Source: Stappia indica
GTDB taxonomy: Bacteria; Pseudomonadota; Alphaproteobacteria; Rhizobiales; Stappiaceae
Assembly: GCF_009789575.1 (NCBI RefSeq)
Contig: NZ_CP046908.1
Span: forward strand, 3,501,001 to 3,565,000
Reading direction: 5' to 3'
Length of the DNA stretch: 64,000 nucleotides
Shown here: positions 8,226-24,961 of the stretch, piece by piece
Layout of the letters: the number at the start of each line of letters is the position of its first letter
Numbering within the stretch: position 1 is the stretch's first letter
Program-made: the position numbers and the translations under genes
The notes under the pieces: model-generated
Databases searched by the model: none
What the model was told of the DNA's origin: nothing
Seen by the model: only the letters and a program-made list of their open reading frames with translations

Positions 8226-9495
8226 AACGTCGGGCGCGCCCGTCTGGAGCAGGCTTCCTGCAGCGCGTCCGACCGCCGTTCGCCGGCCGGATACCTACGA
8301 TCTGTGGATCCGGGCCGCCGGGCTGCTGGTCATCGGCACCATCGTCTTCAACTTCTTCCTGGCGTTCCTGAACACCCGCGTGATGGGGGTGTCGCAGAAC
8401 ATCGTGATGCTGGCGGAGCTTGTGCTGATCGCCGGCGCCATGATCCTGGCTGCCGACCGGCGCGCCGGGCTCTATGCGCTGCTGGCCGTCTACCTCGCCT
8501 ATGTGGCGCTGATCCTGGCGCTGCGGCCCGAGCTCGACCTGAAGGCGATCCGCGACGGACTGATCCCCATCGCGTTCTATTTCCTGGGGCGCCGGGTCCG
8601 CGACATCGAGAGCGTCGACCGTATCGTGCTGCTGTCGGCAGGCATCGTCGTGGCCATCGGCTTCTTCGAGTACTTCCTGCTCGACCTGTTCGTCGCCAAC
8701 GTCAATGTGCTGAAATACTACATCTCCCGCGGTACACTGGAGGTCGGCGACAACCTCGTCGAGGATTCCTCGCTCTTCATCAGCGGCACCCGCATGCAGG
8801 GCCGCAACCTGCTGCCGTTCCTCGGCACCCACCGGGTGTCGTCGGTCTTTCTCGAGCCGGTGGCGATGGGCAATTACGGCGCCTTCCTGGTGCTGTGGGC
8901 GGTCTTCCGAAAGGACATGACCCATCGCTGGCTGCTTCTGGCGGCGGCCTGCGTCGTCATCGTCCTCGGCGATGCGCGCTTCGGCATGATGGTCTGCTTT
9001 GCCCTGATCGCGGTGATCATGGTCTATCGCCTTGTGCCCCGGCTGATCTGGGTGCTGGTGCCGGCCTTCATCACGCTGGCCATGGCGGTCTACGGCATGT
9101 CGACCGATGCGCTGCGCTGGGAGGACGATCTGGGCGGGCGCTGGCTGCATGCCTCCTGGCTGCTGCTCAAGCTCGACACCCAGGGCGTGTTCGGCATTTC
9201 CAGTTATGGCGGCTTTCTGGAGGATAACGGCTATGCCTATTCGCTCCATCAGCTTGGCCTCATCGGCATTGCCGGCCTGTGGTCGCTCTACATCTTCGCG
9301 CCGGTGCGCTCGCCCGACGCCTGGCGGTTCCGCGCCCCGCTCGTGACCTATATCTGCCTGCTGATGGTGGTCTCGGCCTCGTTCTACTCGATCAAGACCG
9401 CCGGACTTCTGTGGTTCTGCGCCGGTGCCGTCGACGTCTGGCGCGGCTTTGCAGCCAGCCGTCAGCGCACCGAAGACCCGAGCGCCTCGCGGTAG
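8206..9495 (+). CDS. O-antigen-polymerase-like (Wzy) membrane protein
   Basis: A 429-residue polytopic membrane protein with about ten hydrophobic segments and a large polar loop at about residues 170-215 (SRGTLEVGDNLVEDSS, SGTRMQGRNLLPF). Wzy-type polymerases show this topology and poor sequence conservation. Its place directly after the chain-length protein, with a 20-base overlap, fits the polymerase that joins repeat units in the periplasm. GumE-like is another possible family label. The 3' end overlaps the convergent glycosyltransferase gene by 34 bases. Confidence 0.7.
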   Translation: MSRWRPETSGAPVWSRLPAARPTAVRRPDTYDLWIRAAGLLVIGTIVFNFFLAFLNTRVMGVSQNIVMLAELVLIAGAMILAADRRAGLYALLAVYLAYVALILALRPELDLKAIRDGLIPIAFYFLGRRVRDIESVDRIVLLSAGIVVAIGFFEYFLLDLFVANVNVLKYYISRGTLEVGDNLVEDSSLFISGTRMQGRNLLPFLGTHRVSSVFLEPVAMGNYGAFLVLWAVFRKDMTHRWLLLAAACVVIVLGDARFGMMVCFALIAVIMVYRLVPRLIWVLVPAFITLAMAVYGMSTDALRWEDDLGGRWLHASWLLLKLDTQGVFGISSYGGFLEDNGYAYSLHQLGLIGIAGLWSLYIFAPVRSPDAWRFRAPLVTYICLLMVVSASFYSIKTAGLLWFCAGAVDVWRGFAASRQRTEDPSASR

Positions 9496-10607
9496 AACTC
9501 CGCGTAGCGTTCGGCCGTGCTCTCCCAGGAATAGGTCTGGGCTACCGCAATCGCCGCCGCGCGCGCGCCTTGCGGGTTTCCGCAGAGCCTTGCATGGGCT
9601 GCGGCAAGCGCGTTGGCCGCCTGCTCGGCATTGCCGAAGTCCGCCAGCGCGATCTCGGCGTGCTTGCGCGCAAAGGCGGAAAAGGCGGCATTCGGCTCCA
9701 CGACCGGCACCAGGCCCGCGCTCATTGCCTCGATCAGGGCAATGCCGAAGCCCTCATAGACGGAGGCGCTGGCAAACAGGCTCGCGCGGCCGACGATCTC
9801 GCGCATCGCTGCATCGTCCGGGCCGACATGGAGCCGCGCCCGGCCAGCGAGCCCGCGTTCGCCGATCATCGCCTCCACGTCCTTGCCGCTCCAGTCGAAC
9901 GGCGTGCCGACGATGTCGAGGGTCCAGTCCGGATCGCGCCGGGCGAGGACCGCGAAGGCGTCGAGCACCCGGTCGATGCGCTTGTTGTGCGACAGCCGGC
10001 CGATGCTGACGATGCCCTTCGCCGGGCTTTTCGCGCCCGCATCGCCGAGCTTGGAGAGATCGACGCCGTTTTCGATCAAGCGCACCTTGCTGGGGGCGAT
10101 GGTGGCGAAGCGCTCGTAGTCGCTCTGGCTGCAGCAGGCGATGCCGCGATAGGCGGTCGCCGACAGCCGCGTCAGGGTGTTGAACCAGACGGTCTTCAGC
10201 CCGCCTGCCGTGCCGGAGTGGAAGAAACCGCCATGGGTGGTGGCAACGAGCGGCCTGCGGTGAAACGGGGCGGCAAGGGCGAGCGCGTCGAAGAAAAAGT
10301 CGATGGCGTGGACATGCACGAGCCCCGCGCCGGCGATCGCCCGGAAGATCCCCGGCGTGACGGGATAGCGCGTCGAGCCGTGCCAGGGCAGGCGGATCAC
10401 CTCGATGCCGTCGATGATCTCCCGCGCGGGCAGGCGCTCTCCCGTGCCGCCGCGAAAGACGCGGTCGCAGGTGACGATCCTGACGCTGGCGAAGCGGTCC
10501 TTCTGCCGGGCGGCGAGGCTTGCGACGAAGTCCTCCAGCCCGCCGACGCTCGGCCTGTACTGGCGCACCACATGCACCAGGTGCAACTGGTCGTCCGGCG
10601 GGATCAT
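9462..10607 (-). CDS. Glycosyltransferase family 4
   Basis: A 381-residue GT-B glycosyltransferase. The N-terminal acceptor domain begins LHLVHVVRQYRPSVGGLEDF. The C-terminal donor domain has the family EX7E motif in YEGFGIALIEAMSAGLVPV and GIVSIGRLSHNKRID. It probably adds a sugar to the lipid-linked repeat unit in the cytoplasm. The ATG at 10607 overlaps the stop of the upstream deacetylase gene (ATGA), giving a two-gene operon. Donor and acceptor are unknown. The end overlaps the plus-strand polymerase-like gene by 34 bases. Confidence 0.9.
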   Translation of the reverse strand: MIPPDDQLHLVHVVRQYRPSVGGLEDFVASLAARQKDRFASVRIVTCDRVFRGGTGERLPAREIIDGIEVIRLPWHGSTRYPVTPGIFRAIAGAGLVHVHAIDFFFDALALAAPFHRRPLVATTHGGFFHSGTAGGLKTVWFNTLTRLSATAYRGIACCSQSDYERFATIAPSKVRLIENGVDLSKLGDAGAKSPAKGIVSIGRLSHNKRIDRVLDAFAVLARRDPDWTLDIVGTPFDWSGKDVEAMIGERGLAGRARLHVGPDDAAMREIVGRASLFASASVYEGFGIALIEAMSAGLVPVVEPNAAFSAFARKHAEIALADFGNAEQAANALAAAHARLCGNPQGARAAAIAVAQTYSWESTAERYAEFYREALGSSVR

Positions 10608-11713
10608 GCGGCAGGGGCCGTCACCCCGGCCAGCGGATTGCCGCCGCGGGTGGCAAGCGCCCGGAACAGTCCGTCGATGCCGCATTCGGTATAGGAGGCG
10701 GAATCCGCCGTGAACTCGGCATTCTGCCGCGGCAGGGTGAACATGTGGCCGGCATGGGCCGGGAACAGGCAGCCCGGCGTGGTGGTCACCGCGGTGCGAA
10801 AGCCCGCCTCGCGCACGACCCTCGGCTCGCGCTCGCCCGACAGCGACGGCGGCCCGTAAGGGTAGGCGAAATGCGGCACCTCGCGGCCCAGCAGCGCTTC
10901 CAGATAGGCCTTGTTGTCGGCGATGTCGGCACGCAATTGGTCTTCGCCCAGCAGGGCGAGGGCGCGGTGCGTCGTGGTATGGGCGCCGATCTCGATCAGG
11001 GGGTGCCGGTCGGCGGCTTTCACGCCGGCATCGTCCAGCGTGTAGCGGGCGACGATGTCGGCGACGCAGACGCCGTGCGCCGTGAACGTCGGACCGAGCA
11101 TCTCTGCCCGGTGGAAGTCCTCCCAGATCCAGGCGACCGCCCGCCGCAGGCCGGCGATCTTGCTGTTGGTATCAGGGCAGGTGAAGCGTTGTCCCATCGG
11201 CTCGATCTCGATTCTCTCGCGCGAGCGGAAGAGTTCGGTCAGGCCCAGCCACCAGGCATTGATGGTGCGGGTCATCATCTCGGTCGGGACATAGATCGTT
11301 GCCGGAGCGGCGTATTTCTCCAGGAGCGGCAGCGCGAGGTCGATATTGGAGCGATAGCCGTCGTCGAAGGTCAGCACGGCGAAGGGGCGCGGATCGTTCT
11401 GGGCGATGCGGCGCGTTGCCTCGTCGAGCGTCACCACCTGCCGGCCGCGCTGCTTCAGTCCGGCCAGGATGCGGCCGAAATCGTCGATCAGGCATCCCTG
11501 GTCGAGATGCGCGCGGGTGTTCCGGGTGAAGTGGTGGAACATCAGGATGACGCCGGAGCCGCCATAGCGATAGCCGATCAGGCGGGTGAGGCGGCTCTTC
11601 GCCAGCATCCGCAGCCCGAACGTCTTGATCCGCCGGCGCGTGCGCTCGCCGGTCGTCAGCTGCGGCGTAACGGTCGGTACGGCTTGCAGCAGGCTGTGGG
11701 TTCTTGCCGTCAT
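10604..11713 (-). CDS. Polysaccharide deacetylase (CE4/NodB-like)
   Basis: A 369-residue protein with the NodB homology domain: AVLTFDDGYRSNID (catalytic Asp and metal-binding Asp), GAHTTTHRAL (the two metal-binding His) and FAYPYGPPSL. CE4 enzymes remove N- or O-acetyl groups from glycans. An insertion of about 80 residues between the first and second motifs holds a Trp-rich helix. No signal peptide is evident, so it may act on lipid-linked intermediates or be exported by another route. It is the first gene of a minus-strand pair with the downstream GT4. Confidence 0.9.
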   Translation of the reverse strand: MTARTHSLLQAVPTVTPQLTTGERTRRRIKTFGLRMLAKSRLTRLIGYRYGGSGVILMFHHFTRNTRAHLDQGCLIDDFGRILAGLKQRGRQVVTLDEATRRIAQNDPRPFAVLTFDDGYRSNIDLALPLLEKYAAPATIYVPTEMMTRTINAWWLGLTELFRSRERIEIEPMGQRFTCPDTNSKIAGLRRAVAWIWEDFHRAEMLGPTFTAHGVCVADIVARYTLDDAGVKAADRHPLIEIGAHTTTHRALALLGEDQLRADIADNKAYLEALLGREVPHFAYPYGPPSLSGEREPRVVREAGFRTAVTTTPGCLFPAHAGHMFTLPRQNAEFTADSASYTECGIDGLFRALATRGGNPLAGVTAPAA

Positions 11714-12027: not shown

Positions 12028-13260
12028 ATGCGAATCTTGATGGCTTGCGCCGCCTTTCCTCCCTTCATGGACGGCGGGGGGCCCATTTCAGCCCTGATGC
12101 TGGCCCGCATGCTTGCGGGCGAGGGACATGTGCTGCGCGTCGTCAATGTCGCGGACGAGGAAGCGCTGGAGCAGGCCGACGGTTTCGAGATCCGGCGCAT
12201 CCGCCCGCCCAATGTCTACTGGAACTACCGCCGGCCGCGCCCGACCTGGAAGAAGATCGCCTGGCATCTGCTGGAAAACGGCAATCCCCGCGCCTTCACG
12301 GCGATGCGCCGCGAGATCGCCGACTTCCGTCCCGACGTCCTGCTCACCGACAGCATCGAGAACATCAACGTGGCGTCCTGGGCGGCTGCCCGTTCCCTGG
12401 GTGTGCCGGTCGCCCACACGCTGCGCAGCGCCTTCCTGCTGTGCTGGCGCGGCGTCATGCAGAAGGCCGACGGGAGCAATTGCGACGGCCAGTGCGCCAG
12501 CTGCTGGCTCACCTCGCTCGGCAAGCGGCATTTCACCCGCTATGTCGACGCGGTCTGCGGCGAAAGCCGGGAGGTCATCGCGCGGCATCTGTCGGCCGGC
12601 TATTTCCCCAATGCGGCGACCCGGCGCATTCCCGGCGCCATCGATCCGGTGCCCGGTGCGACCGCGCGGCGCTTTCCGCAAGACAGGCCGCTGCGCATCG
12701 GCTTCCTCAGCGTCCATACCGCTTTCAAGGGGCTGCAGGTTCTGGCACAGGCGGCCGCCTTGGGCGTCGCGTCTCGCTCTGTGGACTACGTCATCGCCGG
12801 CACCTCGCCCGACGGCAGCGATGCTGCGGCACTGACGAAAGGTTTCCCGGCGGACAGGACCCGCTTCGTCGGCTGGGCCGATCCGGCGGCCTTCTTCCCG
12901 CAGGTCGACGTCCTGGTCTTCCCGTCCATCGGCCGCGAGGCGTTCGGCCGGGTCGCCATCGAGGCCTTCGCCCATGGCGTGCCGGTGCTCGGTTCCGATC
13001 TTGGCGGCATTGCCGAAACCGTCGTTCCGGACCATAACGGCTTCCTGTTCCCGGCCGGCGATGCGGCATCGCTTGCCGGGCTGATCGAGCGGATCGCCGG
13101 CGACGGCGCCCTCTTCGAACGTCTGTCGCAGGGGGCGCTCGCCTCGGCGGAGCCCTATTATCGGCCGCATGTGGCGGCCGCCTATACCCAGTTTCTGGAG
13201 ACAGCAGTGGAACATGCGGCAGCGCGCGCCGGCGGTGTGCGGGAGCAGGTGGCCTCATGA
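12028..13260 (+). CDS. Glycosyltransferase family 4
   Basis: A 410-residue GT4 enzyme starting MRILMACAAFPPFMDGGGP, the usual first strand and Gly-rich loop of the family. The donor domain shows FPSIGREAFGRVAIEAFAHG (EX7E-type) and GSDLGGIAETV. A Cys cluster (NCDGQCASCW) lies near the middle, as in several GT4 enzymes. A TTG at 11986 could extend the N-terminus by 14 residues and has GGTGG upstream, so the start is uncertain. The stop overlaps the flippase ATG by four bases. Confidence 0.88.
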   Translation: MRILMACAAFPPFMDGGGPISALMLARMLAGEGHVLRVVNVADEEALEQADGFEIRRIRPPNVYWNYRRPRPTWKKIAWHLLENGNPRAFTAMRREIADFRPDVLLTDSIENINVASWAAARSLGVPVAHTLRSAFLLCWRGVMQKADGSNCDGQCASCWLTSLGKRHFTRYVDAVCGESREVIARHLSAGYFPNAATRRIPGAIDPVPGATARRFPQDRPLRIGFLSVHTAFKGLQVLAQAAALGVASRSVDYVIAGTSPDGSDAAALTKGFPADRTRFVGWADPAAFFPQVDVLVFPSIGREAFGRVAIEAFAHGVPVLGSDLGGIAETVVPDHNGFLFPAGDAASLAGLIERIAGDGALFERLSQGALASAEPYYRPHVAAAYTQFLETAVEHAAARAGGVREQVAS

Positions 13261-14645
13261 TAGAGCGGATCCGCGCGATCGCCGCCGGCAAGGGCTTTCG
13301 GAAGATCTTCTGGTCCCTCGTCAGCCGAGGCAGCAGCACGGTGCTGAGCTTCGCCCTGCTGTTCGTGGCGAGCCATGTGCTCGATACGGACGAGTACGGC
13401 CTCTACATCTTTCTCTTCTCGGTTGGTTCGTCGCTGGGGCTGATCGCGGTCTTCGGCCAGCAGGTGCTGCTGATGAAGCACTTTCGGCTGGCCAGCCATG
13501 CCCGCGGGGAAACCAACCAGTCGCTCCTCTACTACAATGCGCTGTGGCTCGGCATCGGCTGCGGCGGTCAGCTGCTGGCCGCTTTCGTCATCTGGCTGTT
13601 TTCCGACCGGCTTCCCTACCCTTACGACCACCTGCCCATCGCCTTGCTGTTCGGCGCGATCTTCACGCTCAGCGAGTACATGCAGAGCTACTTCATCGTC
13701 CATGCGCGCATCGTGCTGGCCCTGGTGCCGCGCGAAAATCTCTGGCGCCTGCTGTCGTGCCTGGCTCTGGCCGGCCTTGCCTGGGCCGGCCTGCTGCACA
13801 CGGGCTCGGCCGCCATCGAGATCGTCACCGGCCTGCTCGCGCTGATGGTCGGCTACCAGTTCGTCCGTTTCGTCGCCCATGAGGGGCTCGGCTTCCTGCG
13901 CGCGTCCGGCGCGCGGGCCGAGGTTCCCTCGCGCGAGTGGCGGCGCGAGACGCTGACCTTCTCGGCCAACGGCTTCTTCTCCTCGGCCGCGCTCTATTTC
14001 GAGACGATCCTGATCGGCATTGCCATCGGTCTCGATGTGGCGGCCTTCTATTTCGTCGCCACCCGCATCGCCTCCCTGCTGATCCTGCCCGTGCTGGCGA
14101 TCGACACGGTCGGCGTGCCGCTGATTTCCGCCCGCTTCCAGGAGCGGGACCATGCCGGCGCGCAGAAGCTGGTCTCGATGCTCTCGGCCGGCAGCTTCGT
14201 CCTGGCCGCCATCGGCGGCGTCGTGCTGTTCGTGGTCGGCCCCTTCGTGCTGCATCTCTTCAATCCGGCCTTTGTCGAGCATTTCCCGGTGCTGGTGCTG
14301 CTGTCCATCGGCGCGATCGCCCATGCCTTCTTCGGCCCCGGCACCTGGCTGATGATGATCGGCGGCGGCGAGGCCTATCTGCTCAAGGCGCGCAGCGTTG
14401 TCTTCGTCGTCTATCTCGGCATGCTCTTCGTGCTGGCCAGCCAGTTCGGGCCGGAGGGCGTTGCCATGGCCGGCGTGCTCGAGCTGGTGACCCTGCATCT
14501 GATCTCGCGGCGCTGGGTCCTGCGCCACTGGCAGGTCGACAATGCCGCCACGTCCTTCCTCATGTTGCGGTGGCGCGAGAGGCGGGCGGCGGCCGGAAAG
14601 GTCCGGGACGGGGCACTGGAGGCAGGCGACAATGGTCGTCCGTAG
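13257..14645 (+). CDS. Wzx-type polysaccharide flippase
   Basis: A 462-residue protein with about 12-14 hydrophobic helices and the polysaccharide-synthesis/MATE pattern: FWSLVSRGSSTVLSFALLFV at the N-terminus, then ETILIGIAIGLDVAAFY in the second half. Such proteins translocate lipid-linked repeat units across the cytoplasmic membrane. It is translationally coupled to the GT4 before it (ATGA) and overlaps the GH5 gene after it by 14 bases. With the chain-length and polymerase-like proteins it completes a Wzx/Wzy-dependent set. Confidence 0.88.
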   Translation: MIERIRAIAAGKGFRKIFWSLVSRGSSTVLSFALLFVASHVLDTDEYGLYIFLFSVGSSLGLIAVFGQQVLLMKHFRLASHARGETNQSLLYYNALWLGIGCGGQLLAAFVIWLFSDRLPYPYDHLPIALLFGAIFTLSEYMQSYFIVHARIVLALVPRENLWRLLSCLALAGLAWAGLLHTGSAAIEIVTGLLALMVGYQFVRFVAHEGLGFLRASGARAEVPSREWRRETLTFSANGFFSSAALYFETILIGIAIGLDVAAFYFVATRIASLLILPVLAIDTVGVPLISARFQERDHAGAQKLVSMLSAGSFVLAAIGGVVLFVVGPFVLHLFNPAFVEHFPVLVLLSIGAIAHAFFGPGTWLMMIGGGEAYLLKARSVVFVVYLGMLFVLASQFGPEGVAMAGVLELVTLHLISRRWVLRHWQVDNAATSFLMLRWRERRAAAGKVRDGALEAGDNGRP

Positions 14646-15684
14646 GACCATTGCCGGCAGCGTTCTCGTCTCGCTGCTGTTTGGCGCGCTTCCTGCTTCC
14701 GCGGCCGAGTGCCTGCGCGGCGCCAATGCGGCCGGCGCCGAGTTCGGCGAGGTCCTGCCGGGCGAGTTCGGCCGCCACTACATCTACCCTTCCGCCGAGA
14801 CCCTGCGCTACCTGCGCTCCAAGGGCATGAACGTCATCCGCCTGCCGTTCCGCTGGGAGCGGCTGCAGAAAAAGCAGTTCGCCGAGTTCGACAAGGTCGA
14901 GCTCAAGCGCTTGCAGGAGACGGTCGCCACCGCCACCGGCCTCGGCATGACGGTGGTGCTCGATCCCAGCAACTTCGCCATGTATTACCAGAAGAACATC
15001 GGCAGCGAGGATGTGCCCATCGAGGCCTTCGCCGATTTCTGGCGCCGGCTCGCGCCGCTCTTTTCGGGGCGCGACGACATCATCTACCTGATCATGAACG
15101 AGCCGGCCTTCGTCACGGCGCAGCAATGGCTGCCGGCGGCGAACGCAGCCATCGCCGAGGTGCGCAAGGCGGGGGCGGACAACTTCGTCCTCGTGCCCGG
15201 CACCATCTGGACGGCCGCCGTGCACTGGTACGCCGACCAGGAGGGCGGCTCCAACGCGCAGGTGATGCGCGGTGTGGTCGACCCGATGAACCACTACGGC
15301 TTCGACATCCACCAGTATCTCGACGACGACTATTCCGGCACCAAGACCGCCTGCAACAAGGTGGACGAGGCGATTGCCGGCCTGGAGCGCGTCACCGCCT
15401 GGATGGAGGAAACCGGCAACCGCGCCTTCCTCGGCGAGTTCGGCGGCCATGCCCGCCCCGACTGCTATCGCGGCCTTGCCCGTGTCGTCAGCCTGCTGAA
15501 CTCGCGCCCCGACATCTGGACCGGCTGGACGATCTGGGCCGCCGGCGACTGGTGGGGCGACTACCCGCTTTCGGTGCAGCCGCTGGAGGACGGTCTCGAC
15601 CGGCCGCAGATGGTGGCGATCGAGCCGTTCATCGCCCGCAAGACACCGGAGGAGCGCTCGTGCGAGGCGCTGCGCCGCCGATGA
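14632..15684 (+). CDS. Secreted glycoside hydrolase family 5 (endoglucanase-like)
   Basis: A 350-residue protein with a signal peptide (cleavage expected after PASAAE, about residue 25). The catalytic TIM-barrel has the GH5 acid/base in YLIMNEPAFV and the nucleophile in AFLGEFGGHA; the VIRLPFRWERLQ and HQYLDDD segments are also typical. The ATG at 14632 has GGAGG upstream. Glycanases inside polysaccharide loci commonly trim or release polymer, so a cellulase label may be too narrow. It overlaps the flippase end and its stop overlaps the next ATG. Confidence 0.9.
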   Translation: MVVRRTIAGSVLVSLLFGALPASAAECLRGANAAGAEFGEVLPGEFGRHYIYPSAETLRYLRSKGMNVIRLPFRWERLQKKQFAEFDKVELKRLQETVATATGLGMTVVLDPSNFAMYYQKNIGSEDVPIEAFADFWRRLAPLFSGRDDIIYLIMNEPAFVTAQQWLPAANAAIAEVRKAGADNFVLVPGTIWTAAVHWYADQEGGSNAQVMRGVVDPMNHYGFDIHQYLDDDYSGTKTACNKVDEAIAGLERVTAWMEETGNRAFLGEFGGHARPDCYRGLARVVSLLNSRPDIWTGWTIWAAGDWWGDYPLSVQPLEDGLDRPQMVAIEPFIARKTPEERSCEALRRR

Positions 15685-17465
15685 CAGGTTCGGCCCTCGC
15701 CCCGCGCATGCCGGTGGCCTTCGCCGAGACGGTCGGCCTGCTGGATCTGGCCGGCGGCGATGTCGGCGTGGTGATCTGCGAGCCTTGGGGCTACGAGGCG
15801 CAATGCGCCCGCCGCGCCCTGCGCGTCCTCTCCGACCGGCTGTCGGCGCTGGGCTGCCCGGTGCTGCGCTACGACCAGCCGGGCTCTGGCGATGCGCTGG
15901 CCGCCGGTGCCGATATCGACGGGCTGGCTCCGTTCGAGGTAGCGCTTGCGGCGGCCTGCGAGACGCTGCTGCGGGGCACCCGCGCCACCCGTGTCGTGCT
16001 CGTCGGGCTCGGCCTCGGTGCGGCCCTGTGCCTGCGCCATGCCGTCTCCCATCCGCAGACCGTGTCCGGCCTCGTGCTTCTGGCGCCCCCGGCCAAGGGG
16101 CGCGTCTGGCTGCGCGAGTTGCAGGCCCGCGCCGTGATGATCGGCGAGGTCACCGGTTCTGCTCCCGCGCCCGGCCCCGGCGAGGCGCTGCGCATCGCCG
16201 GCCTGCCCATGTCGAAGGCGCTGGCGGACGAGCTGCGCGCCCTCGACCTGACCGCACCAGACGGCCTGCCCGCCTGCCCGGTCCTGGCGCTCGCCCGCGA
16301 AGGACGCGCCGCGGAAGGTGCCCTTTGCGAGGCGCTTGCCGCCGCCACCGGCGGCGAGGCCGGCATCATGTCCGGCTACGACGAGCTGATGACCGATCCG
16401 ACCGGCTCCCTCGTGCCGGAAGCGGATTTCGCCCGTGTCCTGTCCTGGGTCCAGCGCCTGCTGCCGCGGGCCGATGCCGCTCCCGCCGGCGATGGCGCGG
16501 CAACGCCCCCTGCCGCCCGGCTTGCCGGCCCGTCCTTCACGGAGACGTTGTGCCTCTTCGGCCCGCAGGAGACGCTGGTCGGCGTCTGGTGCGCGCCGTC
16601 CCGGCCCGATCCGCAGGCCCTGCCGGTGATCCTGCTCAATGCCGGCGGCAATCCGCGTGCCGGCTGGGCGCGCGGCGGGGTGGAGCTCGCCCGCTCGCTC
16701 GCAGTGTCCGGCGTGCCCTCCTTCCGGTTCGACATCGCCGATATCGGCGACAGCCGTCCGCTCCCCGGTGGTCCGCAGGTGGTCCACTATCACGCAGGCC
16801 TGCCGGCGCAGCTGTCGGCGGCCATCGACCTGTGCCAGGCGATGGGCGGCGGCGACCGCGTCGTGGTGACGGGCAATTGCGGCGGCGCCTATCTCGCGCT
16901 CAACGGTGCGCTGGCCGACACGCGCATCGCCCATGTGGTCGCGGTCAACCTTCAGCGTTTCCTGTGGGACCCGCGCGACGACGTTGCCGAGGTGCTCCGC
17001 TTCGGCCACAGCTCGGCGAGCGAGTACGGCCGCAAGCTGTTCGATCTTGGCAAGTGGAAGCGGGTGCTGGCCGGAAAGTCCGATCCGCTCGGCATCCTGC
17101 GCAGCCTTGCCGTGCGGGCCTGGCGGCAGGGCGAGCGGCGCTTGGCGCCCTGGCTGTTCGGGCTGGCGCCGTTCTCGCGGCTTTACCATCAGGTACATGC
17201 CAACCTTGCGGCGCTGGCCTTGCGCGGCGTTGCCATCGTCCTCGTCTTCAGCGAGGGCGATCCGGGGCTTGCGCAGCTGGACACGTTCTTCGGCGACGGC
17301 TGGAAGCGGCTTGCCGCCTATCCGAATGTCGAGATCGCGATGATCCCGGATGCGGACCACAATCTCACGCCGGACGCGGCGCGTCTGGCTCTGCGCGAGC
17401 AGGTGATCGGCGCGGCCATGGCCGAGGCCGCGCGTGAAGCAGCGGGCGCTCAGCCCGCCGCGTAG
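15681..17465 (+). CDS. Tandem alpha/beta-hydrolase protein, second domain with Cys nucleophile
   Basis: A 594-residue protein made of two alpha/beta-hydrolase-like halves (about 15-265 and 285-580). In the first half the nucleophile elbow reads VGLGLGAAL, with Gly111 where Ser should be, so it looks inactive. In the second, VVTGNCGGAY places Cys400 at the elbow; candidate partners are Asp527 (FSEGDPG) and His560 (DADHNLTP). No signal peptide is seen. The ATG overlaps the GH5 stop. Exopolysaccharide loci often carry such proteins with unknown roles. A Cys elbow occurs in dienelactone hydrolases and in acyltransferases such as PHA synthase. Function is not established. Confidence 0.8.
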   Translation: MTGSALAPRMPVAFAETVGLLDLAGGDVGVVICEPWGYEAQCARRALRVLSDRLSALGCPVLRYDQPGSGDALAAGADIDGLAPFEVALAAACETLLRGTRATRVVLVGLGLGAALCLRHAVSHPQTVSGLVLLAPPAKGRVWLRELQARAVMIGEVTGSAPAPGPGEALRIAGLPMSKALADELRALDLTAPDGLPACPVLALAREGRAAEGALCEALAAATGGEAGIMSGYDELMTDPTGSLVPEADFARVLSWVQRLLPRADAAPAGDGAATPPAARLAGPSFTETLCLFGPQETLVGVWCAPSRPDPQALPVILLNAGGNPRAGWARGGVELARSLAVSGVPSFRFDIADIGDSRPLPGGPQVVHYHAGLPAQLSAAIDLCQAMGGGDRVVVTGNCGGAYLALNGALADTRIAHVVAVNLQRFLWDPRDDVAEVLRFGHSSASEYGRKLFDLGKWKRVLAGKSDPLGILRSLAVRAWRQGERRLAPWLFGLAPFSRLYHQVHANLAALALRGVAIVLVFSEGDPGLAQLDTFFGDGWKRLAAYPNVEIAMIPDADHNLTPDAARLALREQVIGAAMAEAAREAAGAQPAA

Positions 17466-19927
17466 GGCACCGGCTGGCCGCCGAGCGGCAGAACCTGCCC
17501 CTGAGGTTTGGCATCGCCCGGCGTACCCGGTCGCCGGCGCAGCGCCACCGTCTTCACATGCCCCGGTGCCAGGTGGAACCAGTTGTCGAGCGCCAGGAAC
17601 GCCTCGTCGCGGATCGACACGCTCTGCGCCACCCTGTCGCTCGAAAGCCTCAGGCACCAGCCGCCATCCGCTGTCGCGAATGCCTCAGCGGAGATCTTCG
17701 CCCCGCGCGCCGACGCCTTGCGCCCGAGCGGGAAATGGAAGGCCTCGTCCAGCACCGCATCGGTGTCGGGATCGAGCACCCGCACATGCACGCAGTCATG
17801 CGAGGGCGGGCCGAAGCGGAAGGCGTAGGTCGTGTCGAAGAAGGCGCCGATCAGCCGGGTCGCCGGCAGGGTGAGGCTGCCATGCGCAGGCATCTCCACC
17901 ACTTCGCCGCCGCTCGCCACCGCCATATGCCCCTCGCGCAGGCACGCGATCTCGACCCGCAGCGCCCGCGCAGCGGGCGTATCGTTCTGCAGATGGATGT
18001 CGAGCCCGTTGGTGCCCTCGTCGGTCACGGTGAGCCGCAGCGGGGCGAAGGCGCGGCGCAGGCCGTGCCAGGCGGATTTCGGCGTGCCGTCGCAGCCGAC
18101 CACGCCCCAGCCGGCCCCCGGCATCAGGTCCTGGAAGGTCCACACCAGCGCGCCGCCGCAGCTCGATCCCTTGCGCCGCCATTCGGCGAAGGTCGTCTCC
18201 ATCACCTCGGCGACGGCCGCGCGGCCGTGGTCCAGATAGGAAGCCGGATCGCCGTAGCGCAGGTCGAGCGGATCGACGCCGTAGAGCTCACGCACATAGT
18301 GGTCGCGCACGTCCTCGAAGTCCCAGCCGACATCCCGGTCGCGCGGCACGCCGCGTTTCCAGTCCGGATGGTGACAAGGCGCCGTCTCCGAGACCGCGCC
18401 GGGCTCCGGCACGTTGGAAAAGGCGAGGCATTCGCCGGCAAAGCGCACATGCGCCCGCCTGGCATCCTCCAGCGGCCGGCGATAGGCGCCGACACCGTAG
18501 TAATGGGCAATGCCTGCATTGGGCGAAAACGGCATGGCCCCGCCGCTCGGCGAGTTCGGCACATAGGGCACGTCGGGCCGCGCGCTCGCCGCCGCACCCG
18601 GCAGGATCTCCTCGGTCAGCGCCCCGCGCCAGCGCTCCTCGGCAAGGCCCATCATCGCGCCCTGCTGGTGCATTTCGCTGCCGCCGCAGATGACCGCCAG
18701 CGACGGCGAGGCGCTTGTCCCGCCGAGCAGATCCGACGTTTCCCGGGCGACTTTCGCCGCGAAATCCGGGTCGCTCGCCGGATAGTCGAAATTGGCGAAG
18801 GGCAGGTCCTGCCACACGAGAATGCCGAGCGCGTCGCACAGCTCGAAGAAGGCGGAGCTTTCCGGCGCCATCGTTCCGCCGATGCGCAGCATGTTCATAT
18901 GCGCGTCGCGCGCCAGTTCCAGCCAGGGGCGATAGGCGTCAGCGGTGCCGGGCAGGGCGCAGATGTCGGCGCTGGTCCACACTGCGCCGCGGCAGAACAC
19001 CGGCACGCCGTTGACGAGGAGGGCGAAGCCGTTGCCGTCCGGCCCCCGGTCCACCTCGATCCGCCGGAAGCCGGTGCGTGCCAGCAGCACCCCGCGCCCT
19101 TCGCCGACGAGCCGGACCTCGTGCAGTCGCGGCGTTCCGTGGGTGTGCGGCCACCAGGGTTCGATGCCGGGAAGCTCCAGCGTGGCGGCAAGCTTGCCGT
19201 CCGCCTGCCGTTGCAGCGGCGCCTCGATGCCGGCACAGGCAATGCGCGCGGGGCCCGCAAACCCGTCGCCGGGCCGTAGCGAAACGCTCAGCTGCCCGGT
19301 GCCGTCCTCGTGCAAGGCGGAGCGGATCGAAAGATCGTGCAGCAGCACATCGGAGCGCGCGGCGAGCGTCATCGCCCGCCAGGGGCCGACCGCATGCACG
19401 CTCGGGCACCAGCCCGGCATATGGCCGAGCAGGGTGCTACGGACCATCCTCAGGCCCGGCTCGTCGGCAAGGCGCGTGCGCCAGCGTGCGCGCGGACCCT
19501 TGCGGGCGAAATGCGGCGTCAGCGCGCGAAAGCAGAAGACGAGCTCCGCCGGGCGCTCGAGATCGAATTCGACCTGGAGCGGTTGATACATGCTGTCGCA
19601 GGTCAGCAGCGGCGCACCGTCGATCCAGGCTTCGCAGACCGTCGCCAGCCCGTCGCAGCGAAAGACATGTGTCCCGGGCTTGCTCGGAGCGACGCTGCAG
19701 CGATACCAGACGTCCTTGTCGTGCAGCGGCGTCGGTGCCTCGCGGGAAAAGCGGCCTGCCGCCTCCAGCGCGGCCGCCGCCGTTCCCGGCACCTTGGCCG
19801 GCACCCAGTCTGCATCGGCCTTCAGGTCGGCAGGCGTCGTCCAGGTATTGGCAGGCGTCACGCAGAGCTGCCAGTCGGCTTCGGCAAGACGGTTCGCGGC
19901 CTCGGGCAGGGTGGCAAGGTCGATCAT
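17450..19927 (-). CDS. GH2 beta-mannosidase-like protein
   Basis: An 825-residue protein with the GH2 order: jelly-roll sugar-binding domain (about 1-190), Ig-like domain, then TIM barrel from about 290 (GFRRIEVDRGPDG). The likely acid/base is Glu418 in VICGGSEMHQ, where family members usually have Asn before Glu. The nucleophile candidate is Glu499 in RFAGECLAFSN. No signal peptide is present, so it is probably cytoplasmic. It is the last gene of the carrier-protein operon, 40 bases after the DUF1839 gene, and its 3' end overlaps the opposing hydrolase gene by 16 bases. The substrate could be a mannoside of the operon product. Confidence 0.82.
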   Translation of the reverse strand: MIDLATLPEAANRLAEADWQLCVTPANTWTTPADLKADADWVPAKVPGTAAAALEAAGRFSREAPTPLHDKDVWYRCSVAPSKPGTHVFRCDGLATVCEAWIDGAPLLTCDSMYQPLQVEFDLERPAELVFCFRALTPHFARKGPRARWRTRLADEPGLRMVRSTLLGHMPGWCPSVHAVGPWRAMTLAARSDVLLHDLSIRSALHEDGTGQLSVSLRPGDGFAGPARIACAGIEAPLQRQADGKLAATLELPGIEPWWPHTHGTPRLHEVRLVGEGRGVLLARTGFRRIEVDRGPDGNGFALLVNGVPVFCRGAVWTSADICALPGTADAYRPWLELARDAHMNMLRIGGTMAPESSAFFELCDALGILVWQDLPFANFDYPASDPDFAAKVARETSDLLGGTSASPSLAVICGGSEMHQQGAMMGLAEERWRGALTEEILPGAAASARPDVPYVPNSPSGGAMPFSPNAGIAHYYGVGAYRRPLEDARRAHVRFAGECLAFSNVPEPGAVSETAPCHHPDWKRGVPRDRDVGWDFEDVRDHYVRELYGVDPLDLRYGDPASYLDHGRAAVAEVMETTFAEWRRKGSSCGGALVWTFQDLMPGAGWGVVGCDGTPKSAWHGLRRAFAPLRLTVTDEGTNGLDIHLQNDTPAARALRVEIACLREGHMAVASGGEVVEMPAHGSLTLPATRLIGAFFDTTYAFRFGPPSHDCVHVRVLDPDTDAVLDEAFHFPLGRKASARGAKISAEAFATADGGWCLRLSSDRVAQSVSIRDEAFLALDNWFHLAPGHVKTVALRRRPGTPGDAKPQGQVLPLGGQPVPYAAG

Positions 19928-19967
19928 CTGGCTCCCCGGTATCGGGTCGGGCCGCGCGGCGAAGGCG

Positions 19968-20975
19968 TCACGCCGCGCGCGTGCGCAGGCGGGAGGGAAG
20001 TTTCTCTTCCAGCCCCGTCATCAGCGTGTTCCAGGCCGCAGCCGCAGGGTTCAGGGCCTCGCCGAGCCCGGCAAAGCGCTTGCGCGCCAGCGCCCTCGCC
20101 AGCTGGAACTGCAGCGTCTTGCAGCACTCGGAGATGGCGCGTGCAGCCTCCGCCTCCGCCGCAAGACTGCCGTCCTCGGCGAGCCAGTCGAGATGGCTGG
20201 CCGCCAGCTCGAAATTGGCGCCCGCCTGGCGCAGCGTGTTGAACGCGTATTTGTGGAAGGCCTCGAAGGGACGCTCCGACAGGGCCTCGATCTCGGCTGC
20301 GAAGCCAGATGCATAGGCGGCAAAGGGATTGTCCTTCGGCCGCCGCGCCAGATGCCCGGCGAGCAGCTTCCAGGCGATCTCGCGCAGGTTTCCGGCCGGG
20401 GCGGTGTCGGGCGCCGCCTCGGGGAATTTCGCGAATTCGGTATAGGGCAGGAAGGGCAGGGGCTGGGCGTGTTCGCCGCGCTGGAACACGCCGTCGAAGT
20501 CCTCGCCTTCCAGCTCGAAGAAGCCGGCATTGTGGAAGTAGCGCAGGCGCTTGGCATCTTCGTCCAGCGCGGTGATCGCCACCGTCGTCTTGCCGTGCTC
20601 GATGCGGTAGCTGACGCCCTGCGTGTCGGGCAGGAAATAGCTGTCCACCTCGACGAGGCACAGCCGGCCGCGGGCGATCTGCGTCGCCACATGCCGCTCG
20701 ACCGGCTCGTAGACGGCCAGTTCCGTCGCGCGGATGCCGTAGAGCGCCTCGAGATCCTCCAGCGGCACCTTGAAGAAGGTGAACTGGTCGCCCTCGAAAT
20801 CCTGCGTCAGGGCAAAGCCGAGCATCGCCTCCACCGGCAGGCCGAGCGCATGCAGCACCTCGATCCACAGATCGACATAGCAGTTGGTCTCCGGCCACAT
20901 CCGCCCTGCGTCATGCAGGGAATGCGGCCGGTAGCCGTCGGCCCGAAGGGCGGCGAGCCTGTCGAATGCGGGCAT
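19968..20975 (-). CDS. DUF1839 family protein
   Basis: A 335-residue protein that I recognise as DUF1839: GYRPHSLHDAGRMWPETNCY near the N-terminus, then a conserved acidic FEGDQFTFFK segment. No catalytic function is known. Members occur almost only next to amino acid:carrier protein ligases, which is also the case here: its ATG is two bases after the ligase stop. The C-terminal part is helical and Ala-rich. A role as transferase accepting the aminoacyl group from the carrier protein is possible from context alone. Confidence 0.85.
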   Translation of the reverse strand: MPAFDRLAALRADGYRPHSLHDAGRMWPETNCYVDLWIEVLHALGLPVEAMLGFALTQDFEGDQFTFFKVPLEDLEALYGIRATELAVYEPVERHVATQIARGRLCLVEVDSYFLPDTQGVSYRIEHGKTTVAITALDEDAKRLRYFHNAGFFELEGEDFDGVFQRGEHAQPLPFLPYTEFAKFPEAAPDTAPAGNLREIAWKLLAGHLARRPKDNPFAAYASGFAAEIEALSERPFEAFHKYAFNTLRQAGANFELAASHLDWLAEDGSLAAEAEAARAISECCKTLQFQLARALARKRFAGLGEALNPAAAAWNTLMTGLEEKLPSRLRTRAA

Positions 20976-20977
20976 GG

Positions 20978-21889
20978 TCAGCCCCACAGCGCCTTGCGCA
21001 CGTCCGCCGGCCAGTCGGCCGTCTCCAGCCCGTGGCGGGCAAAGAGCGCGAGCGCGATCCGCTCCAGGCCGAAGCCGACGCAGGCCGTGTGGGCCGTTTC
21101 GCCGTCGGCGGTCGTGAGGCCCCAGGTCGTGCCGAAATGGTCCTGGTGATAGTTGAAGCTGAGGCAGGCGGTCTTGTTGGCCGACGAGGTCACCGGGATC
21201 AGCAGCTCGAACTTCAGCTTCTGCTCGCGCTGGCTGTTGCCCATCATCTTGCCGGCGCGGCCGAAGAACGGATCGTTCGCCGTGTCCAGCTCGACATCGA
21301 GGCCGACGGCGGAGATCAGCTTCTGCCCGCGCTCCATCCAGTCCTCGCGGAACTCCATCACCTGGTCCGGCGTGCCCATACGCACGAACTCGCGCATGCG
21401 GAACAGCTGCATGCGGGCCGGGTCCTTGGAGGGCTCGTGGCGGAAGCAGTAGGACTGCAGGTCGAACAGCCCGCCGCCGGCCGGCAGCGGTCCGCGCTTG
21501 GCCACCACCGGATAGAGCGGGTAGCAGGCGGCCGGCGTCAGCACCACGTCGGTGGCCTTCTGCCCTTCCGTCCAGTCGCCGCCCTCGGCGATGCACTGCA
21601 AGAGGTTCATGTGGTCGAGCTCGCAGCCGCAGAAGCTGTGCACCGTGCCGGCCAGCTGCGGGAAGCTCTTCATGTAGCCGGAGCCTTCGAAATGCTTGCG
21701 GTTCATGCCCGGCGGAAAGCGGATCACCTCCGGCCGCGCGTCGGCCGGCGCGTGGGCGTCGATCAGCTTCTCGAAGCGTGCGATCACGTCCTCGAACGTG
21801 CCGCTGCGGCCGTAGAGGCCGTCGATGCCGGTGTCGATCAGCAGGCCGGCGTCGAGCAGCCGGTCGAGCAGCGAGCTCTGCATGTCCAT
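20978..21889 (-). CDS. Amino acid:[acyl-carrier-protein] ligase (class II aaRS-like)
   Basis: A 303-residue protein with a class II aminoacyl-tRNA synthetase catalytic core: motif 2 in [20 protein letters not shown] and motif 3 in [13 protein letters not shown]. No anticodon-binding domain is present. Cys122, Glu167 and Cys270 have the same spacing as the zinc ligands I recall for the Bradyrhizobium enzyme Bll0957 (131, 176, 279). That family resembles seryl-tRNA synthetase but loads a small amino acid, mostly glycine, onto the phosphopantetheine of a dedicated carrier protein. The carrier gene is two genes upstream in the same operon. Confidence 0.93.
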
Positions 21890-21902
21890 GGGTCCCTCCC
21901 GA

Positions 21903-23084
21903 TCAGCCGTAAAGGCTGGTGTCCTGCTTGTGCACGAGCAGCATGGTCGACGTGTTGCCGAGAATGCGGTCGTTGGAAATCATCAGCTGGGCCGAATGCG
22001 CATCGCGCAGGTGCCGGCCGAGGCTGTAGGGCGTGCCGTTCTTGTAGGCGAGGATGCCGCAGATCAGCATGCAGTGATTGATGATCGACAGGATCGTCTG
22101 CGAGCTGGCGATCTTCAGGTTGTTCATCGCCACGGCAAAGCTCATCGCCGAGAGCTTGTCCTCGTCCAGCCGCGCCGCGTCGTATTTCTCGATGGCGGCC
22201 ACGATGCTGGCCTTGACGCCCTGCAGCAGGGCCGAGGCCTCGGCGACGCGCAAGGCGCCGGGCGGCGCCTGGTCGGGGCTGCGGCGGGCGGCGGCGCGCA
22301 CGAAGGCCTGCGCCTTGGCGAAGGCATCGGCGGCGATGCCGTACCACACCGCGCTCCACAGGATGTGCGAATGGGCGAGCATCGACTGGGCCGCGATCTC
22401 GGCGAAGGGCCGGGGCAGGATCTGCTTTGCCGGCGCCTCGCCCTTGAACAGGAAGCCGTCGGAGCAGGTGCCGCGCATGCCCAGCGTGTCCCACACATGG
22501 GTGCGCTCGAGCGTGTACTGGTCCTTCAGGAAGACGGTCATCACCTGGTCGCTGGAGGCGGCTTGCGGATGCGCGCGCGAGGTGATCAGGATGGCGTCGG
22601 CTTCCGTGCCGTAGGAGATGACGGTGGCGTCCTTCTGCAGTCGGCAGGTGTCGCCGTCCACCTCGATCGCGCAGATCGAGTTGCGCAGGTTGCCGCCGAT
22701 GCCCCCTTCCGTCGTTGCCGAGGCGAGCAGCAGCTGCTCGGCCGCGACGCGGACCATGAAGCCGCGGTGCCAGTCGTCCTCCTCGCCGTGGCTGACCAGG
22801 CTCGAGACCTTGATCTGGTGCATGGCGAAGACCATCGCGGCCGCGGCGCAGGCCTGACCGAGAATGGCGCAAAGCTCGGAAATCTCCGCGACCGACGCCC
22901 CGTCGCCGCCCAGCTCTGCCGGGATCTGGCATCCCAGCAGCCGTTCGTGCCGCATCGCATCGACCGCCTCGCGCGGGAAGCGCGCCGCGTTGTCGACCGC
23001 ATTCGCATGGGTGGCGGCGATCGCTGCCACCCGCCGCATGCGCTCGCACAGCGTCATGGCCTTTGCGGAGCCGAGCATGGTCAT
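21903..23084 (-). CDS. Acyl-CoA dehydrogenase-family flavoprotein
   Basis: A 393-residue acyl-CoA dehydrogenase-fold protein: helical N-terminal domain with [20 protein letters not shown], a middle barrel with [19 protein letters not shown] (FAD/substrate loop), and a helical C-terminal domain ending in [19 protein letters not shown]. In carrier-protein pathways such enzymes oxidise the alpha/beta or alpha/N bond of the tethered acyl group; here the tethered group would be aminoacyl. The ATG overlaps the carrier-protein stop by one base. Substrate and product are unknown. Confidence 0.88.
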
Positions 23085-23341
23085 CACGCCACCTGCTCGT
23101 CCGGTGCGAGCTCGGCCACTGCCGAGGAGATCGCGCCGATGCTGGAGAAGGTCTTGCGGTTGAGCATGGTCTCGGGGAATTCGATGTCGAACCGCTCCTC
23201 CAGCGCCAGCATCAGCTGCACGGAGGCGAAGGACGACAGGCCCGCGGCATACAGGTCCGCGTCGTCGGCAAGCGTGGCGACATCCCCCGGCAGCTTCCCA
23301 TGGCTGGCGATGATCTTGCGCACATCTTCGATGATCGACAT
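23084..23341 (-). CDS. Acyl carrier protein for aminoacyl groups
   Basis: An 85-residue four-helix carrier protein, first gene of the minus-strand operon. The phosphopantetheine attachment site is in YAAGLSSFASVQ; by alignment with the usual G-L-D-S-L pattern the modified residue is Ser37, with Ser replacing the normal Asp before it. CAGGAG lies eight bases before the ATG. Dedicated carrier proteins next to amino acid:carrier protein ligases are charged by them after activation by a phosphopantetheinyl transferase. None of the fatty-acid ACP neighbours (fabD, fabG, fabF) is here. Confidence 0.9.
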   Translation of the reverse strand: MSIIEDVRKIIASHGKLPGDVATLADDADLYAAGLSSFASVQLMLALEERFDIEFPETMLNRKTFSSIGAISSAVAELAPDEQVA

Positions 23342-23755: not shown

Positions 23756-24961
23756 ATGCGCAATGCCTATATCGTCGACTATGTCCGCACGCCGATCGGC
23801 CGCTTCGGCGGTGCGTTGTCTTCGGTGCGGGCGGACGATCTCGGTGCCGTGCCGATCCGCGCCCTGGTCGCGCGCAATGGCGGCGTCGACTGGGCGCGCG
23901 TCGACGACGTGATCTACGGCTGCGCCAACCAGGCGGGCGAGGACAACCGCAATGTTGCGCGCATGGCAGCGCTTCTTGCCGGCCTGCCGGTCGAGGTGCC
24001 CGGCACCACGGTCAACCGCCTGTGCGGCTCGGGCATGGATGCGGTGATCATGGCCGCGCGCGCCATCCGCACCGGCGAGGCCGATCTGATGATCGCCGGC
24101 GGCGTGGAGAGCATGTCCCGCGCGCCCTTCGTCCTGCCCAAGGCCGACAGCGCCTTTTCCCGACATGCCGAGATCCACGACACCACCATCGGCTGGCGCT
24201 TCGTCAATCCCGTGATGAAGGCGCAATACGGCATCGATTCCATGCCCGAGACGGCGGAAAACGTCGCCACGGACTACAACATCGTGCGCGCCGACCAGGA
24301 TGCCTTCGCCGCCCGCTCGCAGGACCGCGCCGTCGCGGCCCAGGAGAACGGCCGTCTTGGCCGCGAAATCGTCCCGGTCACCATTCCGCAGCGCAAGGGC
24401 GATCCCGTCGTCGTCGAGCGCGACGAGCATCCGCGCGCCGGCACCACCGCCGAGAAGCTCGCCAAGCTGCCGACCCCGTTCCGCCAGGGTGGGTCGGTGA
24501 CGGCCGGCAATGCCTCCGGCGTCAATGACGGCGCCGCCGCGCTGCTGATCGCCTCCGAAGAGGCGGTGAAGGCCTATGGCCTGACGCCGATCGCCCGCAT
24601 CATTGGCGGTGCGGCGGCGGGCGTGCCGCCGCGCGTCATGGGCATCGGTCCGGTGCCGGCGACGCGCAAGCTGATGGCGCTGCTCGGCCTGTCGATTGCG
24701 GATTTCGACGTCGTCGAGCTGAACGAGGCCTTCGCGGCCCAGGGGCTGGCGGTGATGCGCGAGCTGGGACTGGCGGACGATGCTGCCCACGTCAATCCGA
24801 ATGGCGGGGCCATCGCGCTCGGCCATCCGCTCGGCATGTCGGGCGCGCGCATCGTCGGCACGGCCGCGCTGGAGCTGGTCGAGCGCGGCAAGGCTCGCGC
24901 GCTTGCCACCATGTGCATCGGCGTCGGTCAGGGCATCGCCTGCGCCATCGAGCGCGCCTGA
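23756..24961 (+). CDS. pcaF: 3-oxoadipyl-CoA thiolase (acetyl-CoA C-acyltransferase)
   Basis: A 401-residue thiolase. Close to PcaF along its length as I remember it: [20 protein letters not shown], then [11 protein letters not shown] with the acylated Cys, [19 protein letters not shown] with the catalytic His, and [10 protein letters not shown] with the second Cys. It cleaves 3-oxoadipyl-CoA to succinyl-CoA and acetyl-CoA at the end of the beta-ketoadipate or phenylacetate pathway. GGGAGGT precedes the ATG. No other pca or paa gene is in the window, so related 3-ketoacyl-CoA substrates remain possible. Confidence 0.88.

Follow-up and report, generated by a model that had tools for sequence, protein, structure and literature searches.

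A carrier-protein operon and a co-occurring cysteine hydrolase in Stappia indica as a putative system for exopolysaccharide decoration

A 64,000-nucleotide stretch of the Stappia indica genome (NCBI RefSeq assembly GCF_009789575.1, contig NZ_CP046908.1, positions 3,501,001 to 3,565,000; hereafter the window) raises the question of what a carrier-protein operon makes when it ends inside a polysaccharide locus. Five minus-strand genes encode a carrier protein (CP), an acyl-CoA-dehydrogenase-like flavoenzyme (ACAD-like), an aminoacyl-tRNA synthetase (aaRS)-like amino acid:[carrier protein] ligase, a DUF1839 protein, and a glycoside hydrolase family 2 (GH2) enzyme. Facing them on the plus strand is an exopolysaccharide (EPS) locus whose nearest gene specifies a tandem alpha/beta hydrolase (HYD). 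Carrier-protein ligases of the aaRS-like kind have been known since 2010, and we know of no product assigned to them. We consider it marginally favored that the operon and HYD work together as six proteins to attach a small acyl group derived from an amino acid to an EPS building block. We infer all of this chemistry in S. indica from what was observed, namely the gene set and its order, co-occurrence across genomes, a predicted fold, and conserved residues.

Gene order and genomic neighborhood of the operon

The order CP, ACAD-like, ligase, DUF1839, and GH2 was complete in 92 of 96 loci, the window included, which rules out a chance cluster of five genes. The positions and families agree with the single operon proposed in the initial annotation. 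The four incomplete cases were a locus at a contig edge (L071), one without GH2 (L102), one whose carrier gene was missed by the gene caller (L103), and a lone DUF1839 gene near a contig end (L106); because of the miss in L103, the gene-order counts are lower bounds. Median gaps across loci were -1, 5, 5, and 16 bases. In the window, CP and ACAD-like share one base (gap of -1), and 13, 2, and 40 bases separate ACAD-like from the ligase, the ligase from DUF1839, and DUF1839 from GH2, respectively. The earlier description of gaps of two bases or overlaps ahead of GH2 is thus accurate for CP/ACAD-like and ligase/DUF1839 but not for ACAD-like/ligase. It correctly placed the operon end 16 bases inside the facing locus, since the 3' ends of the convergent GH2 (minus) and HYD (plus) genes overlap by 16 bases.

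The loci compared derive from a scan of named genomes, in which the best 80 of 567 relatives, hence close kin, were taken (mostly Rhizobium, Shinella, Stappia, Brucella/Ochrobactrum, and Agrobacterium vitis), and from 15 longer stretches of other genomes. Loci with both the ligase and DUF1839 (type A) numbered 98, with some genomes present twice (e.g., L162 to L165) and L106 excluded for having no ligase; dereplication yielded 25 loci under 80% identity. Neighbor counts left out L001 to L021, L117 to L146, and the short loci L184 to L213, L225 to L251, and L272 to L274, and the family annotation of neighbors in sister loci covered chosen genes. Polysaccharide genes were sought within 20 kb by means of twelve families (eleven polysaccharide families plus HYD); as the window locus and L107 supplied the genes behind these families, loci like those two are favored. 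Polysaccharide genes other than HYD were found in 14 of the 25 type A loci and in 3 of 12 loci having only the ligase (Wzz in each), versus 0 of 18 control regions (0 of 348 genes) from the same set of G-numbered genomes. With HYD counted, 22 of the 25 type A loci hold at least one polysaccharide-type gene and 13 hold at least two. This neighborhood comparison, which the initial annotation had suggested, leaves the association of DUF1839 with glycan genes standing, albeit not at every locus. L107, from the family f216, which may be Burkholderiaceae, provides another case, with the operon beside genes for a WcaJ-type transferase, ManC, and Wzc.

HYD as a proposed sixth component

HYD (594 amino acids [aa]; 15681..17465, plus strand) combines a hydr2_PEP-like domain 1 and a hydr1_PEP-like domain 2 and scores below both exosortase cutoffs, TIGR03100 and TIGR03101 (98.6 versus 168.45 and 43.2 versus 202.75 bits, respectively). 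At the nucleophile position of domain 1 the window protein has Gly; Ser appears in 7 of the 60 rows shown, the others having Gly or Arg. Domain 2 carries a G-x-C-x-G elbow (GNCGG) whose cysteine, C400, is kept in 64 of 64 aligned homologues, in agreement with the initial label of a Cys-type hydrolase, and C400, D559, and H560 were invariant in 17 rows. Foldseek searches with the HYD model returned 1238 matches at an E value of ≤0.001, and the 50 listed were mainly ordinary alpha/beta hydrolases.

The link between HYD and the operon is carried chiefly by genome-wide co-occurrence. DUF1839 was detected in 5 of 385 genomes sampled at the class level and in 16 of 398 sampled at the phylum level, the S. 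indica genome being in both sets. In the phylum sample, full-length HYD (>400 bits) was present in 16 of 16 DUF1839-positive genomes versus 1 of 382 DUF1839-negative genomes (G675). The underlying search at an E value of ≤1e-20 hit 27 of the 398 genomes; these 17 full-length matches were counted, and ten partial ones (75 to 152 bits), which by sequence may represent separate hydr1 and hydr2 genes, were left out. A second sample of 200 genomes, from the family of G675, contained DUF1839 in 85, HYD in 85, and both in 80; hence, HYD accompanied DUF1839 in 80 of 85 positive genomes versus 5 of 115 negative ones, with some HYD matches at an E value of ≤1e-60 being partial or split (e.g., G772, G817, G891, and G913). 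At least five genomes (G607, G613, G675, G677, and G681) are shared by the two samples, and genomes are not independent, so Fisher values overstate this evidence. Near-constant co-occurrence in two genome sets nonetheless bears out the earlier view that a Cys hydrolase goes with the operon and rules out HYD as an unrelated convergent neighbor. Of the five genomes with HYD and without DUF1839, all three that were inspected have other carrier systems next to HYD, i.e., an adenylation domain and carrier in G675, a ligase-flavoenzyme-carrier set in G753, and two ligases in G784.

Locally, HYD occurred in the stretch of 18 of the 25 dereplicated type A loci, directly adjoining the operon in 15, and in 0 of 12 ligase-only loci and 0 of 18 control regions. 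HYD genes away from the operon often lie among EPS genes, on other contigs in G551 and G475 (L219 and L221) and also in G677, G728, and G607 (L222 to L224). A second copy in G551 (L220) has no clear EPS setting, and in G186 HYD is not near the operon and is present on another contig. Among 21 HYD neighborhoods of f216 (L218 and L252 to L271), hand-picked across genera from 85 positive genomes, 15 hold a carrier, loader, flavoenzyme, DUF1839, or GH2 gene. We propose that HYD may work on the same carrier- or sugar-bound acyl group as the operon enzymes, either as a second transferase or as a proofreading thioesterase.

Alternatively, HYD and GH2 could serve the quality control of polymer precursors, leaving CP, the flavoenzyme, the ligase, and DUF1839 as the decorating pathway. 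Such a role is proposed for the hydr1 relative Bcam1334 in the accessible text of PMC3584217, and it would accommodate the features of GH2, which retains both catalytic Glu residues but has S417 instead of the usual Asn, is absent from L102, and went undetected in the stretches of L263 and L269. A general EPS enzyme would, however, not be expected to follow DUF1839 closely across genomes as HYD does, with the proviso that its spread was compared with that of DUF1839 only, and we regard this explanation as rather unlikely.

Relatives of HYD occur with other loaders. The unfused hydr2 and hydr1 genes of L216, which score over the cutoffs, adjoin genes for an AMP ligase (TIGR03098) and for a carrier-sized protein of 83 aa; the latter matched a carrier profile weakly and fell in no NCBIfam family. 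A TIGR03099 decarboxylase gene is in the same stretch. These exosortase-A-associated neighbors would suit an acyl group borne not by polysaccharide but by an envelope protein or lipid in need of the EPS machinery, in the manner of exosortase/PEP-CTERM proteins. We hold this to be very unlikely, as the window HYD misses both exosortase cutoffs and CcbD, the structural kin of DUF1839 described below, has a sugar amine as its acceptor. A fused HYD gene in L218 follows an adenylation domain (346 bits with the A-domain model, cutoff of 317; DltA models came next, below cutoff), the carrier belongs to the same equivalog as the window CP (NF005480; 110 bits, cutoff of 72), and Wzc is encoded nearby. 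Judged by sequence, L218 appears to have a DltA-like loader in place of the aaRS-like ligase while keeping the carrier and HYD. We tentatively extend these findings, with somewhat less than even confidence, to a general thiotemplated pathway of EPS decoration in Gram-negative bacteria, in which one carrier and one Cys alpha/beta-hydrolase pair would be combined with exchangeable loaders (the aaRS-like ligase, a DltA-like domain, an exosortase-type AMP ligase, or perhaps whole nonribosomal peptide synthetases) and modifiers (the flavoenzyme, DUF1839, and GH2). The hydrolase pair, whose only annotation is exosortase A-associated, would then be a carrier-to-glycan acyl transferase or its editor and the counterpart of Dlt in Gram-negative bacteria.

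Pairs of hydr1 and hydr2 genes were also seen in stretches with very large adenylation-domain proteins, at L214 9125-10802 (2331 aa) and L217 8792-10535 (2106 aa). No paper tying HYD to a carrier protein was found in a literature search that lacked most subscription papers and is correspondingly weak; in the main text of Haft 2006 (PMC1569441), the words hydrolase, carrier protein, ligase, decarboxylase, and acyl were not found.

Predicted roles of the operon enzymes

CP (85 aa; 23084..23341, minus strand) matched PF00550 (1.7e-08) and the equivalog NF005480 (116 bits, cutoff of 72). Its S37, within a GLSS motif, is conserved in at least 97% of 93 aligned rows and is likely the phosphopantetheine site. 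The ligase (303 aa; 20978..21889, minus strand; NF005479, 513.4 bits, cutoff of 357) aligned with the solved Amino acid--[acyl-carrier-protein] ligase 1 (Bll0957) at an E value of 2e-100. C122, E167, and C270, kept in at least 97% of 95 rows, correspond to Cys131, Glu176, and Cys279 of Bll0957, which we take to be its Zn ligands. Tested relatives presumably load glycine on a carrier; by analogy, the window ligase would activate a small amino acid and load it on CP. In the ligase phylogeny, the 12 above-cutoff ligases from ligase-only loci formed a separate branch (support of 96/85), and the joint branch of ligases linked to DUF1839 or HYD was weak (80/78). Bll0957, assigned by kinship, probably belongs with the ligase-only group; its placement on that other branch led us to drop the idea of reading the amino acid substrate from it. 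Remote ligase relatives under the cutoff (L159, L160, and L161; E values of ∼1e-38 to 1e-50) were found in other families.

The flavoenzyme (393 aa; 21903..23084, minus strand; PF02771, acyl-CoA dehydrogenase N-domain, 2.7e-10) has as its nearest solved chains a flavin adenine dinucleotide-dependent oxidoreductase (3m9v and 4kcf, both presumably KijD3), DnmZ, a short-chain acyl-CoA dehydrogenase (7p98), and a nitrososynthase. By sequence, nitrososynthase-like chains were close to it (E values of 2.5e-14 to 6e-12) and mixed with the short-chain dehydrogenase. Neither the C-terminal nor the helix-G stretch, placed by pairwise alignment, showed a conserved catalytic Glu among the top 12 patterns of each; these two positions are the known catalytic sites of acyl-CoA dehydrogenases. 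Some rows have ISNER instead of ISNDR. The ordinary dehydrogenase assumed initially is accordingly less well supported. Furthermore, glycine has no Cβ, so Cα-Cβ desaturation would be impossible if glycine were the substrate, leaving oxygenation or Cα-N oxidation. The flavoenzyme would thus oxidize the carrier-bound amino acid, more likely by one of the latter two reactions than by desaturation.

DUF1839 (335 aa; 19968..20975, minus strand; PF08893, 430.5 bits, gathering threshold of 22.5) was modeled with AlphaFold2 at a pLDDT of 93.2 and a pTM of 0.92. All 19 Foldseek matches of this model in the PDB at an E value of ≤0.001 were AziU2/U3, CtaG, or CcbD, in whole-length alignments of 323 to 369 columns with TM scores of 0.53 to 0.62 and 12 to 16% identity; no BtrH structure was among the matches shown. 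CtaG and AziU2/U3 belong to secondary-metabolite pathways other than that of the lincosamides. C32, within TNCY, is conserved in at least 97% of 96 rows, with L020 and L021 lacking the Cys, and H127 and H148 are invariant in 48 rows. On the basis of the model, DUF1839 is predicted to be a papain-like Cys acyltransferase of the CcbD type, a prediction that favors the transferase role assigned to it initially. According to the accessible portion of PMC12945683, CcbD passes carrier-bound proline to an enzyme Cys and then to a sugar amino group in lincosamide condensation. DUF1839 shares with CcbD/LmbD the predicted whole-length fold, a conserved Cys, a carrier-bound amino acid as presumed donor, and a gene set suggestive of sugar. 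It differs in showing no detectable sequence match and in its catalytic triad, which is Cys-His-Glu in CcbD versus a reported C-(T/S)-H in DUF1839, itself placed among papain-like proteins in the available part of PMC10318531. We propose that DUF1839 would take the acyl group on C32 and pass it to an amine, most likely that of a cytoplasmic amino sugar, as CcbD does.

Duplicated DUF1839 genes were observed in f216. The operon copies of G613 and G681 lack the catalytic Cys (NRH or NQQ replaces NCY in L020 and L021), and both genomes have a second, Cys-bearing copy, which in G681 is convergent beyond GH2. The pair is at 6901-7881 and 11732-12799 of L107 in G681 and in L113 and L106 in G613. From sequence, an inactive/active pair is possible in these two genomes. 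L257 to L261 and L270 have the same convergent arrangement as G681, which refers to the arrangement only.

GH2 (825 aa; 17450..19927, minus strand; PF22666, GH2 N-domain) is a beta-mannosidase-like and probably cytoplasmic enzyme with beta-mannosidases 5n6u and 6byc as relatives of known structure. Alignment with 6byc identifies E418 as the acid/base and E499 as the nucleophile, both kept in at least 97% of 94 rows. The site is altered nearby, with S417 for the usual Asn before the acid/base Glu in at least 97% of the same rows and RIGGT or variants where beta-mannosidases have RxWGGG, so that a plain beta-mannoside is an improbable substrate. In a crude scan, none of the 94 rows had a strongly hydrophobic stretch within its first 40 residues. 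The suggested link to mannose is weak: the beta-mannosidase type of GH2 and ManC-like genes in 11 of the 21 f216 HYD loci speak for it, but no ManC-like gene was found in the window locus. As the weakest step of the proposal, GH2 may trim or recycle a beta-mannosyl-like intermediate, after which Wzx/Wzy would flip and polymerize the decorated unit. Overall, the pathway outlined in the initial annotation survives in part, as a single operon with a glycan link, a DUF1839 transferase, and a Cys hydrolase, with weaker backing for the ordinary-dehydrogenase step.

Several observations weigh against the assignment of this system to EPS building blocks and to six cooperating proteins. HYD was the sole polysaccharide-type gene in 8 of the 25 dereplicated type A loci (e.g., L105 and L112), and three more (L027, L102, and L111) had none. 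Six of the 21 f216 HYD stretches contained no carrier, loader, flavoenzyme, DUF1839, or GH2 gene, and five DUF1839-positive genomes had no HYD even at an E value of 1e-10; in these, the DUF1839 matches were partial in G900 and G901, with at least one of full length in G857, G886, and G930. As to the enzymes, the TM scores given above count on the same side, as does a DUF1839 profile search of PDB sequences that returned two chance-level matches and no CcbD, CtaG, or AziU sequence. Likewise, the ligase-only group, with Bll0957, is on a separate branch, and the glycine preference of Bll0957 may therefore not carry over.

Loci with HYD alone would also fit a soluble product, i.e., a signal or an aminoacyl sugar resembling lincosamides or mycothiol, which GH2 and HYD would activate or recycle and to which the EPS genes would be co-regulated neighbors only. 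The involvement of CcbD in lincosamide synthesis, and of CtaG and AziU2/U3 in secondary metabolism is compatible with this explanation, as is the failure of the crude scan to show an export signal in GH2. We nevertheless judge it unlikely. HYD tracks DUF1839 and often resides among Wzz, Wzc, and glycosyltransferase genes even when on another contig (L219 and L221); the second loader type shares the carrier and HYD beside Wzc in L218; and the unlabeled neighbors, among which no search was aimed at small-molecule exporters, differ between loci.

Known systems and the facing locus

A neighborhood of seryl-tRNA synthetase (SerRS) paralogues comprising a carrier, a redox enzyme, the uncharacterized Atu2574, a glycosidase, and liposaccharide genes is described in the accessible text of Iyer and Aravind (2010; PMC2922099), whose note in proof predicts monooxygenation of the aminoacyl group and its amide linkage to a cell-surface sugar amino group. 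From that description and the gene order, we infer that Atu2574 is a DUF1839 protein, and the window operon very likely belongs to this Atu2574-type system, with which it shares the gene set and the core prediction. The idea of transferring an amino acid to a surface sugar is therefore not new, having been in print since 2010, and PMC10318531, of 2023, suggests in its accessible part that DUF1839 has a glycan-related role. The 2010 account, as far as its accessible text goes, mentions neither an alpha/beta hydrolase partner nor an exchange of loaders and assigns Atu2574 no fold. New here are HYD as a sixth component, the match of DUF1839 to a CcbD-type fold, the exchange of loader in L218, the counted controls, and the residue tests. 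The parts list thereby grows to six proteins tied to EPS loci with counted controls, each Cys enzyme is given a testable role, and three separately annotated gene sets are linked, namely aaRS-like ligase operons, the adenylation-domain loader, and exosortase-A-type hydrolases. If the proposal is true, surface polymers of rhizobia, Stappia, and f216 would bear an aminoacyl or oxidized aminoacyl group, which composition analysis by acid hydrolysis could overlook.

The SerRS-paralogue amino acid:[carrier protein] ligases Bll0957, Bll6282, and Atu2573 were reportedly described by Mocibob in 2010 and are cited in PMC2922099. Bll0957-type systems have in common with the window a ligase over the NCBIfam cutoff, an adjoining carrier and flavoenzyme, and the Zn ligand positions. 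The ligase-only loci (L147 to L158) have the flavoenzyme and ligase genes adjacent but differ from the window in that DUF1839 and GH2 were not seen, the carrier is divergent where called, and the ligase is on a separate branch. The genes behind their module vary by lineage (a 291-aa protein without a Pfam family; an alpha/beta hydrolase, a carrier-sized protein, and an AMP ligase; or a gene of Cys/Met metabolism), which suggests that the ligase/flavoenzyme module supplies different pathways. In L151, labeling the 291-aa protein encoded behind the ligase as a GNAT was dropped because Pfam gave no match.

The exosortase-A set (TIGR03098, TIGR03099, TIGR03100, and TIGR03101) resembles the system under study in the carrier-sized protein, AMP ligase, and adjacent hydr2/hydr1 genes of L216 and in the GxC elbow of the hydr1 part. 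The window, unlike that set, has one fused hydrolase below the cutoffs and an aaRS-like loader and adds DUF1839 and GH2. Similarity to Dlt D-alanylation lies in the weakly DltC-like window carrier (31.6 bits, cutoff of 68) and the DltA-like loader of L218. A DltB-type (MBOAT) membrane transferase was not matched among the 14 window proteins scanned, and, unlike in Dlt, transfer is predicted to be cytoplasmic via a Cys enzyme.

The facing locus is of the polysaccharide type, as initially recognized. Upstream of HYD on the plus strand lie genes for a glycoside hydrolase of family 5 (14632..15684; PF00150, 4e-44), whose N terminus looks signal-peptide-like by eye, a Wzx-type flippase (13257..14645; PF01943), and a family 4 glycosyltransferase (12097..13260; PF13692). 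A polysaccharide deacetylase (10604..11713; PF01522) and a second family 4 glycosyltransferase (9462..10607; PF00534) are encoded on the minus strand. They are followed on the plus strand by a 429-aa membrane protein without a Pfam family (8206..9495), a Wzy polymerase only as a possible candidate, and a Wzz chain-length protein (6213..8225; PF02706, 1e-08; GNVR, 2e-06). A crude hydropathy scan gave ∼9 transmembrane segments for the flippase and ∼7 for the Wzy candidate. The host genome is a single contig of 5.117 Mb, and Stappia sp. WLB 29 has a ligase with 99% identity to the one encoded here. On the other side, a 3-oxoadipyl-CoA thiolase gene (23756-24961) diverges from the operon; it adjoins the operon only in L022 to L026 and L114 among the loci compared and is probably unrelated to it.

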